DNA of 51,670 nucleotides, taken from the NCBI GenBank assembly GCA_028821475.1, contig JAPPGB010000144.1:1-51670 (forward strand), in the 5' to 3' direction. The translations under genes were made by a program, and so were the position numbers. This stretch comes from Spirochaetaceae bacterium (GTDB lineage Bacteria > Spirochaetota > Spirochaetia > SZUA-6 > Bin103). Positions 481-6,053 of this stretch are shown piece after piece (within the stretch, counting starts at the first letter, position 1; each line of letters begins with the position of its first letter). The notes under the pieces are model-generated. The model worked only from the letters and a program-made list of their open reading frames with translations. It ran no database searches and was not told the origin of the DNA.

Positions 481-551
481 CATCCACGCGACGCAGTGGG
501 TAGGCGGTGGAACTGTAGCCAAACGTCCAACGCGTCAGCGCCGATTATTCT

Positions 552-602
552 GCACGCCAGTGCGGAATTCTCTGGATTATTCCGCACTGGCGTGCGTAAT
601 AT
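552..602 (+). promoter_or_regulatory. Perfect 17-bp inverted repeat plus -10 box: operator/promoter of the ATPase gene
   Basis: Arms 552-568 and 579-595 are perfect reverse complements of 17 bases with a 10-base spacer. Immediately after lies TAATAT (597-602), a good -10 hexamer, and the GTG start is 7 bases after its last base. No T-run follows, so it is not a terminator. The right arm fills the -35/-10 spacer, so a bound protein should block the promoter. No convincing -35 box is visible. Confidence 0.6.
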
Positions 603-608
603 CAAAGC

Positions 609-1808
609 GTGGCGACGATTGCCAGAATATATCGCGCGATTCTGAGCGACGCGCTTGGTGAGCATAGGCAGATGGCGCTGGTGGCCGGCCCACGGCAGGT
701 CGGAAAGACCACTACCTGTCGCGAGCTCGCCGACGTCTACCTGGACTGGGACAACGAGGATCACCGCGAGCTGATTCTTGCTGGCCCCGCCGCCGTCGCC
801 GCCCGCGCAGGACTCGACAGACTCGCCGATCGACCGATCAGGATCGTGTTCGACGAACTGCACAAGTACAGGCGATGGAAGCAATTCCTCAAGGGCTTCT
901 TCGACACCTACGAGGATCGCGTCCGCATCATGGTGACAGGCTCGTCGCGGCTGGACGTCTACCGCAGGGGCGGCGACAGCCTGATGGGACGGTACTTCCT
1001 CTACCACATGCATCCGTTGAGCGTGGCGGAGTTGGCGGGGCGGCCGCTGTCGAACGCCACGCACGTCGCGCCGGTGCGGCTCCCCGAGGCGGAGTGGCAG
1101 GCGCTCCGTGTGTTTGGCGGCCATCCGGAGCCGTTCGTCAAGCGCTCGCCGCGATTCTCGCTTCGGTGGCGCGAGCTGCGTGCACAGCAACTCCTGCGCG
1201 AGGATATCCGCGACATGACCGGCGTTCAGGACATAGACCGGCTGGCGGTCCTGGCGCGCCTGTTGGCTACGCGCAGCAGCGATCAGCTCATCCATTCGAG
1301 CCTGGCAAAGCAGGTGCGCGTGAGTGAGAACACCGTGCGCAGTTGGGTGGCGACACTCAGCTCATTCCACTACGGATTCCTGGTCAGACCGTGGTTTCGA
1401 AACGTAGCCAAGGCGTTGCGCAAGGAGCCGAAATGGTTCTTGCGGGATTGGAGCGGCATTGCTGACGCCGGCAAGCGCGCCGAGACCTTCTGTGCCTGCC
1501 ATCTCCTGAAGGCGGTCGAGGGCTGGACCGATCTCGGACTAGGGTCGTTCCGGCTGCACTACCTGCGTGATACCCAGAAGCGCGAGGTCGACTTTCTCGT
1601 GGTCCGTGACGAAGAGCCCTGGTTGCTGGTGGAGGCCAAGCAGGGCGCTGCCGGGCTGTCACCCCACCTGGATCACTTCCAGAGGCAGACGCGTGCCGAG
1701 CACGCGTTCCAGGTGTCGATGGATGCCGACTACGTAAACACCGATTGCTTCTCGCGCACTGAGCCCGTCGTCGTGCCAGGCAGGACCTTCTTCGCGCAGT
1801 TGCTCTAG
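609..1808 (+). CDS. AAA+ ATPase with DUF4143 C-terminal domain
   Basis: A 399-residue protein of the AAA_14/DUF4143 family, cytoplasmic ATPases of poorly defined role. Walker A is GPRQVGKT (27-34), Walker B IVFDE (79-83), and the sensor-like TGSSRLD is at 110-116. Residues about 230-250 look like a winged-helix segment. The C-terminal part carries EVD (326-328) and LLVEAK (339-344), the pattern of a PD-(D/E)XK-type nuclease fold. Length is normal. The GTG start at 609 is chosen because the family N-terminus begins there and because it falls at the predicted transcription start, implying a leaderless mRNA. It stands alone and ends convergently with transporter locus 1. Being adjacent to a wrecked gene of another ATPase family suggests an accessory insertion site. 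Family call is firm, biological role unknown. Confidence 0.9.
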   Translation: MATIARIYRAILSDALGEHRQMALVAGPRQVGKTTTCRELADVYLDWDNEDHRELILAGPAAVAARAGLDRLADRPIRIVFDELHKYRRWKQFLKGFFDTYEDRVRIMVTGSSRLDVYRRGGDSLMGRYFLYHMHPLSVAELAGRPLSNATHVAPVRLPEAEWQALRVFGGHPEPFVKRSPRFSLRWRELRAQQLLREDIRDMTGVQDIDRLAVLARLLATRSSDQLIHSSLAKQVRVSENTVRSWVATLSSFHYGFLVRPWFRNVAKALRKEPKWFLRDWSGIADAGKRAETFCACHLLKAVEGWTDLGLGSFRLHYLRDTQKREVDFLVVRDEEPWLLVEAKQGAAGLSPHLDHFQRQTRAEHAFQVSMDADYVNTDCFSRTEPVVVPGRTFFAQLL

Positions 1809-1812
1809 TGTC

Positions 1813-1892
1813 CCGGAAGCCGCGCCTTGCGGCGCCGCTTCCGGCCCAGCCGGCCTACCTAGGAGCCTGCCGGAATCCGACAGGCTCCTAGG
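1813..1892. terminator. Two hairpins between convergent genes
   Basis: Hairpin A (1813-1844) has an 8-bp outer stem (CCGGAAGC/GCTTCCGG), one C-C mismatch, a 5-bp inner stem and a TTGC loop. Hairpin B (1858-1892) has perfect 12-base arms (CCTAGGAGCCTG/CAGGCTCCTAGG) with an 11-base loop, and overlaps the stop codon of the minus-strand permease. Neither has a long T-run. Position between converging genes suggests bidirectional termination. Confidence 0.6.
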
Positions 1893-5922: not shown

Positions 5923-6053
5923 CAGCCAGATCTCCAGCCGACAGCGACCATACTCCCTGCGCGGCGAGCTGTCAAACTCTCTTTCTCGGGCTGGTCAGGC
6001 TGGAGCACGGCGGGCGGATCGGGTGGCAGCCATCACCCGGCGCGGGTAGGATG
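5923..6053. repeat. Dispersed ~130 bp repeat, copy 2
   Basis: Same orientation and about 90% the same as 177-307. Unlike copy 1, no ATPase-like coding sequence follows: after CGGGTAGGATG the sequence is unrelated. It therefore looks like an orphan 5' region or an independent repeat unit. Confidence 0.8.

Follow-up and report, generated by a model that had tools for sequence, protein, structure and literature searches.

The AAA_14-DUF4143 ATPase gene at positions 609–1808 of the window, the whole stretch of 51,670 nucleotides analysed and one contig of a 5.7-Mb genome, is preceded by two symmetric elements that lie over its promoter, and gene and site probably form a self-regulated single-gene unit, in which the ATPase would bind and repress its own promoter. 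This reading draws on four features of the sequences, namely the geometry of the site, its recurrence in the clade, the placement of promoter and start codon, and the covariation of the half-sites with the recognition helix of the encoded protein. The protein matches the profile of the PADLOC phage defence candidate PDC-S01 (AAA_14 with DUF4143), so far a candidate for an anti-phage role. In the available part of one report, PDC-S01 is an ATPase fused to a PD-(D/E)XK domain, S01 is the fourth most common defence across prokaryotes, and most PDCs of the core set still await validation (PMC12988326). Within the partial PDC-S01 literature covered, mostly outside subscription papers, no operator, leaderless start or self-recognition is mentioned; all three are added here for the family as predictions.

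Operator and promoter of the window gene

A perfect 17-bp palindrome had been described upstream of the gene in a first-pass annotation. Its reverse-complement arms occupy 552–568 and 579–595 with a gap of 10 nt, where base composition predicts 3.3e-4 such pairs in the window (arms of at least 17 bp, gap 0–20); the remaining perfect pairs of at least 13 bp at a gap of up to 20 nt have arms of 13 bp. The 17-bp perfection is partly accidental, and the underlying element is a set of two 22-bp dyads, 32 bp apart, composed of four 9-bp half-sites (547–555, 560–568, 579–587 and 592–600). Dyad A reads ATTCTGCAC-GCCA-GTGCGGAAT (547–568) and dyad B ATTCCGCAC-TGGC-GTGCGTAAT (579–600); the palindrome consists of the central half-site pair plus complementary gap letters and half-site ends. 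The features of the region are as follows.

547–555, plus strand: half-site 1, ATTCTGCAC, left arm of dyad A (sequence, pattern match 547–568)
560–568, minus strand: half-site 2, ATTCCGCAC as read on the minus strand; serves both as right arm of dyad A and as left side of the central palindrome
552–595, no strand: 17-bp perfect palindrome, arms 552–568 and 579–595
573–578, plus strand: putative −35 box position, TGGATT where many relatives have TTGACT, in the loop of the central palindrome; placed by comparison with relatives, a weak match here
579–587, plus strand: half-site 3, ATTCCGCAC, left arm of dyad B
592–600, minus strand: half-site 4, ATTACGCAC as read on the minus strand, right arm of dyad B, overlapping the −10 box
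597–602, plus strand: −10-like box TAATAT (alternative register CGTAAT, 595–600), containing the in-frame stop TAA (597–599)
609–1808, plus strand: AAA_14-DUF4143 ATPase gene, GTG start, 399 aa, PADLOC PDC-S01 family (open reading frame, profiles)
1813–1844, plus strand: GC-rich hairpin past the stop codon, a possible terminator without a T-run; its sequence is largely kept in a 97%-identical copy

The window half-sites are without the GACT end of the family consensus. In a congeneric copy of the gene with 97% identity, the 9-bp arms are retained except for one letter in half-site 2, and the 4-nt gaps are AGCA and TAGT where the window has GCCA and TGGC, so that this copy has no perfect long palindrome. 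Among named copies of the gene, the closest is that of the MAG 'Spirochaetaceae bacterium bin103', at about 96–97% identity. Elsewhere in the genome of the window, the exact palindrome was not found at up to 2 mismatches, and this site therefore has no regulon; nor does the two-dyad pattern occur a second time in that genome.

The overlap with the promoter stands as first proposed, with half-sites covering the −35 position, the spacer and the −10 box. Likewise, TAATAT at 597–602 followed by GTG at 609, at the position of the expected transcription start, fits a putative leaderless transcript. GTG 609 is the only ATG, GTG or TTG start before Met22, because TAA 597–599 closes the frame, and its distance to the P-loop (−78) resembles that in relatives. 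The plus-strand −35 box of the window gene, TGGATT, is poor. A consensus promoter scan omits this plus-strand promoter and lists a sigma-70-like one on the opposite strand over the same operator (576–605, minus strand, TTGATA-18-AATAAT, 10/12).

Geometry and leaderless starts among relatives

Relatives were assembled in two sets. The discovery set combined a class sample, in which 34 of 394 sampled genomes had a relative at E <= 1e-30, with 80 loci kept of 509 from named genomes. The 54 places of the class sample were reduced to 50 (G019:C166:51079 left out; L047, L067 (internal stop) and L074 without a P-loop by pattern) and the 80 named loci to 72 (L127, L154, L171, L180, L192 and L193 omitted for a late match start or too little upstream sequence, L140 and L195 for open ends); removal of four duplicates gave 118 distinct genes. 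Most of the separate set derives from the phylum to which a Syntrophorhabdus relative belongs, sampled at 395 genomes of which 70 contributed; ten genomes with named loci were added. Here, 110 of 120 phylum-sample places were used (30 as loci, 80 fetched), making 125 with the named-genome loci; one had no start candidate and the rest were filtered to less than 85% identity to any discovery gene, leaving 94. The two sets share ancestry. Starts were chosen with the promoter in view for the arm-agreement, covariation, core-offset and inverted-repeat counts, and by a blind rule for the leaderless count only.

The spacing seen at the window gene recurs upstream of AAA_14-DUF4143 relatives with gene-specific half-site letters, most commonly GACTATTTTGCA, and with a TTGACT −35 box at the centre; by eye, many upstream regions follow the plan GACTATT..N..AATAGTC TT GACTATT..N..AATAGTC gt ATG. 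A TTGA/TTGC −35 box is present in 77 of the 118 distinct genes (41 are without one by this scoring) and in 67 of the 94 genes of the separate set (27 without). In the former 77, the two central arms agree within a gene at positions 8–12 with frequencies of 0.58, 0.65, 0.75, 0.71 and 0.81, compared with 0.33, 0.42, 0.31, 0.31 and 0.55 between genes. The corresponding values for the latter 67 are 0.69, 0.64, 0.55, 0.69 and 0.69 within and 0.61, 0.54, 0.28, 0.28 and 0.51 between genes, and the within-gene gain in symmetry in this set lies mainly at half-site positions 10 and 11.

When copies of each gene's own half-site core were counted by offset in 143 genes (both sets, TTGA/TTGC −35 required, the window gene not included), they peaked at −20 inverted (43), −32 direct (29) and +12 inverted (17), against means per offset of 0.79 inverted and 0.42 direct; the window operator shares the 32-bp period. 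By a 6-of-8-letter criterion, half-sites 2, 1 and 4 occur in 75, 71 and 52 of these genes, compared with 15%, 17% and 17% when the core of another gene is used. At least three half-sites are present in 60 of the 143 (control 11.6%) and all four in only 24 (control 3.3%). A TTGA/TTGC −35 box was scored in 40 of the 68 named genes that are non-redundant, and 24 of those 40 carry half-site 2 (at least 6 of 8). Record titles of the named loci with the geometry span many phyla; many loci come from metagenome bins, and taxon labels may be wrong. The plan fits by eye in a Rhabdochlamydia plasmid copy, which is a complete record, and less well in a Bandiella plasmid copy.

The best inverted-repeat score in the 87 nt upstream, with clade starts selected with the promoter in view, reached at least 12 in 30% of 207 clade genes, 0.9% of 110 control ORFs from the window's own genome and 0.2% of 621 shuffles. 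A palindrome general to DUF4143 genes was considered and set aside, the signal being weak in the own genome, to which this count is confined: 9 of 33 other DUF4143 genes scored at least 8, against 4.7% of shuffles (36 loci, less three whose best reading frame lacked a P-loop). The expectation of a palindrome near homologs has to be taken as one of geometry: clade members repeat the spacing, each with letters of its own, and the exact letters are unique in the genome.

Other repeats were seen as well. Loci L042–L044, L082–L085, L152, L170, L177 and L183 appear by eye to have half-sites of type ATGAGTAAA, and in some clade members of this type the ATG start adjoins or lies inside the last half-site. 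The own genome has 42 DUF4143 matches, a large expansion, and some other DUF4143 subfamilies in it have start-proximal repeats: a direct repeat, GGCAATTGGACG, several times at L005, inverted repeats ending 3 nt before the ATG at L013, and inverted repeats near the start at L029.

Leaderless expression of the clade genes is a well supported prediction from the sequences, because start codons lie at the expected transcription start and Shine-Dalgarno motifs remain at shuffle level. Starts were picked blind to the promoter and had to be ATG, which places the window gene, with its GTG, outside the count; an ATG candidate was present in 198 genes and was the only one in 162. With the spacing at which transcription would begin at the ATG, a −35 box of at least 5/6 was found in 64.8% of the 162 genes (shuffles 3.6%) and a −10 box of at least 5/6 in 34.6% (shuffles 7.3%). 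For all 198 genes the figures were 56.6% and 31.3% (shuffles 4.5% and 6.6%). Shine-Dalgarno motifs were near shuffle level in the relatives (5.6% vs 4.7% and 4.2% in shuffles, 4.7% being the shuffle figure for the 162 genes under the ATG rule).

The encoded protein and its covariation with the half-site

The window protein matches DUF4143 with 84 bits (curated cut-off 28.1), AAA_14 with 82.7 bits (cut-off 27) and the PDC-S01 profile over residues 3–359 (E = 3e-48). Its AlphaFold2 model (mean pLDDT 94.3) has AAA+, winged helix and PD-(D/E)XK-like domains.

666–1034, plus strand: AAA+ domain, residues 20–142, with GPRQVGKTT and VFDELHK, which we take to be Walker A and the Walker B region
1233–1442, plus strand: winged helix domain, residues 209–278 (AlphaFold2 model, named from secondary structure)
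1326–1364, plus strand: predicted recognition helix, residues 240–252, of which 240 and 241 covary with the half-site
1467–1718, plus strand: residues 287–370, presumably a PD-(D/E)XK-like nuclease fold, so named from its motif and after PMC12988326; E292, D328, E342 and K344 conserved

A PD-(D/E)XK domain is defined by a D...(D/E)xK motif in an alpha-beta-beta-beta-alpha-beta core. In the model, the window protein appears to have both, with the order H287-308 E314-320 E326-333 E336-344 H352-361 E365-370 in the nuclease part; D328 is invariant, and E342 and K344 are present in at least 90% of 73 sequences. Sequence searches for solved homologs returned none with a meaningful E-value, and the best matches in PHROGs and NCBIfam had E = 0.065 and 0.1. 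The 50 matches listed in each fold search were mostly AAA+ and STAND ATPases, RuvB among them; Cdn1 (9u49) had a TM-score of only 0.20. The best aligned among the top-ranked Foldseek chains were the archaeal AAA+ ATPases PABY2304 (2qen, Z 14.3 over 256 residues) and SSO1545 (2fna, Z 14.1 over 244), which cover the AAA+ and winged helix part; these alignments stop at residue 287 and 286 of the window protein, respectively, and barely cover the nuclease part. We know of no operator for PABY2304 or SSO1545. Cdc6/Orc1 on origin DNA (2qby) is a further structural match that shares an AAA+ domain plus a DNA-reading winged helix; the TM-score is low (0.28), and nothing at the window suggests an origin function.

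Covariation was analysed in genes whose central arms agree at no fewer than 8 of 14 positions (58 discovery genes and 48 of the separate set). In a first analysis of 52 genes, residue 241 ranked first and residue 240 second. Summed over positions 8–12, residue 241 ranked first of 365 columns in both the discovery and the separate set; residue 240 ranked second in discovery and 37th in the separate set. At single positions in the separate set, residue 241 came third at 10 and 11 and 21st at 12; it carried no information at 8 or 9. In the model, residue 241 is the second residue of the recognition helix, which begins at 240.

Closest non-overlapping pairs were also compared (n=53, of which 38 could be scored at position 10). 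At position 10, pairs with the same residue 241 had the same base in 24 of 25 cases and pairs with different residues had different bases in 10 of 13, for which residue 241 was the best of 367 residues (p = 6e-6, or ~0.002 once corrected for their number); next came V376, which lies in the C-terminal part (1.6e-5). At position 11, residue 241 gave p = 0.04 and another column was better; N241 occurs there with C in 40 of 41 genes and K241 with G in 13 of 19. A rule on residues 240–241, learned on the discovery set and applied to scorable test genes, predicted position 10 in 24 of 27, compared with 23 for the relative nearest in the remainder of the protein and 16 for the majority letter, and position 11 in 24 of 28, compared with 22 and 14. 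Residue 241 alone predicted position 10 in 23 of 32, against 25 of 32 for the nearest neighbour. The signal is therefore located where the recognition helix should read DNA, and prediction alone cannot separate it from common ancestry.

That half-site letters tend to change together with the predicted DNA-reading part suggests that each such gene controls itself. Since it is the recognition helix of its own winged helix that covaries with the site, the ATPase is the likely regulator. The idea that the ATPase might be its own regulator thus gains a modelled winged helix at 209–278 and the covariation of residue 241, the latter a statistical association in sets of shared ancestry.

Regulation, mobility and possible function

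A repressor of its own gene should have a symmetric operator over its own promoter, which is found at the window gene and in relatives, and a DNA-binding domain matched to that operator, to which the statistics of residue 241 point, with nearest-relative prediction almost as good. Under such control, the winged helix of the ATPase would bind the half-sites at its own promoter, four of them at the window gene, and the bound protein would block RNA polymerase, because the −35 box, spacer, −10 box and transcription start lie inside or adjoin the operator. With four half-sites in the window operator, a single dimer is less likely than two dimers, or a larger assembly, spaced 32 bp (about three turns); of the tight control by a dimeric repressor first suggested, the operator-like overlap with the promoter is what is retained. 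Because the mRNA would be leaderless, the control region would amount to an operator-promoter of ~60 bp. Gene and operator would travel together between distant bacteria while the recognition letters coevolve, and ATP or a phage- or DNA-derived signal may relieve repression. Self-control of this kind fits a costly nuclease or ATPase that needs a low level and quick release. A comparable arrangement is seen in the available part of a study on RptR, which represses the promoter of a defence island by binding repeats within it, one of several autorepressed defence operons (PMC12255303). As described there, RptR is a separate small regulator, whereas the window protein is apparently regulator, ATPase and nuclease in one, and the operator letters vary from gene to gene in the clade.

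We infer repression from the position of the site, and an unlikely variant is that the protein binds there as an activator or a sensor of DNA structure. AAA+ winged-helix proteins such as its fold neighbours Cdc6/Orc1 and RuvB also open or remodel DNA, and the −35 box of the window is weak, as in activated promoters. However, half-sites over −35, spacer and −10 occupy a typical repressor position, and most relatives (77 of 118) possess a TTGA/TTGC −35 box.

A distinctly unlikely reading makes the palindrome a mobile-element end or target site, with the ATPase and nuclease moving the gene and promoter control being secondary. The 97%-identical congeneric copy does lie in a different place: BLAST aligns it with no part of the window upstream of position 531, and the neighbouring dpp-type genes of the window have their best match on another contig of the congeneric genome. 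The scatter of relatives over phyla and the nuclease-like fold of the modelled protein also point this way. Against it, the half-sites have a fixed position relative to −35, −10 and start codon, as in an operator, and a half-site 12-mer (at most 1 mismatch) occurs elsewhere in 4 of 114 loci within the flanks covered. Recombination in shared DNA would be enough to account for the different places, because both copies adjoin the 3′ end of a permease gene downstream (~50 bp past the stop are shared, followed by the permease gene at lower identity). Transposon terminal inverted repeats were looked for in the flanks and rejected as the rule, because the 12-mer lies on the 3′ side in only 2 of the 114 loci (L076 at +33, L081 at +1200).

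Several observations concern the surroundings. A near-perfect inverted repeat at 1857–1893, between the convergent ATPase and permease genes (core 1861–1889, AGGAGCCTGCCGGA A TCCGACAGGCTCCT), is a dispersed terminator-like or REP-like element, given its 9 places in the genome at up to 2 mismatches; none was seen at the corresponding place in the congeneric copy. Positions 176–275 and 5923–6023 of the window are two copies of one stretch (54 nt at 91%, 43 nt at 98%), 5.7 kb apart, which flank the ATPase and dpp-type transporter genes and may be the remnant of a repeated element. A phage collection gave four distant matches (identity up to 27%) and a plasmid collection two at E < 1e-20. The clade members of Candidatus Bandiella numerosa (L329) and Candidatus Rhabdochlamydia oedothoracis (L330) are on endosymbiont plasmids near integrase genes; toxin-antitoxin genes are also found around the former, which is annotated as two pieces.

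It is very unlikely that the operator belongs to another regulator of the host and that the ATPase merely stands behind it. A palindrome over a promoter would be expected from any dimeric repressor, but here the geometry follows the gene, with inverted half-sites (at least 6 of 8) in 24 of the 40 named loci that have a TTGA/TTGC −35 box, from many phyla by title, and on the Rhabdochlamydia plasmid; half-site letters follow a residue in the recognition helix that the gene itself encodes, and the unit is found nowhere else in its own genome. Nor did the neighbours in 114 loci include a regulator as recurrent as DUF4143 paralogs (14 loci by profile, 17 neighbour ORFs) or ABC-transporter ATPases (7 loci, read by eye). 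A conserved partner gene was likewise discarded, no toxin-antitoxin partner in the 114 loci being as recurrent as these two. The DUF4143 neighbours (e.g., at L068, L079, L125, L183 and L189) look as if the genes gather in small clusters.

Action of the palindrome in RNA, as a leader hairpin or a terminator of an upstream gene, is extremely improbable: its perfect arms would fold, but a transcript from this promoter would exclude them, because the last half-site already extends into the −10 box, with the start codon following, a terminator scan of 400–2000 found none at the palindrome, and many relatives have a TTGACT −35 box at the centre of symmetry.

Building on self-repression by the ATPase, it is conceivable, in a more speculative extension, that the clade consists of portable one-gene switches. 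One protein would serve as sensor ATPase, as nuclease and as the sequence-specific repressor of the leaderless promoter that drives it, and residues 240–242 would form a readable recognition code; each paralog in a genome would read letters of its own and so stay insulated from the others, and the protein would be dislodged by infection or DNA damage, causing derepression and freeing the nuclease.

Candidate anti-phage ATPase-nuclease genes in different bacteria appear to share a repeated DNA switch at their start, of which the window palindrome is one example. In the accessible accounts of PDC-S01, it is reported among the most frequent candidate defence genes of prokaryotes, and its mode of action is absent from them. 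A self-operator with a partly legible code would name the binding site, contact residues, transcript start and paralog insulation as testable predictions, and the operator could help to recognise true family members and their starts in genomes. It may also suggest how one gene can serve in many hosts, needing no Shine-Dalgarno sequence and carrying its own promoter and regulator in ~60 bp.
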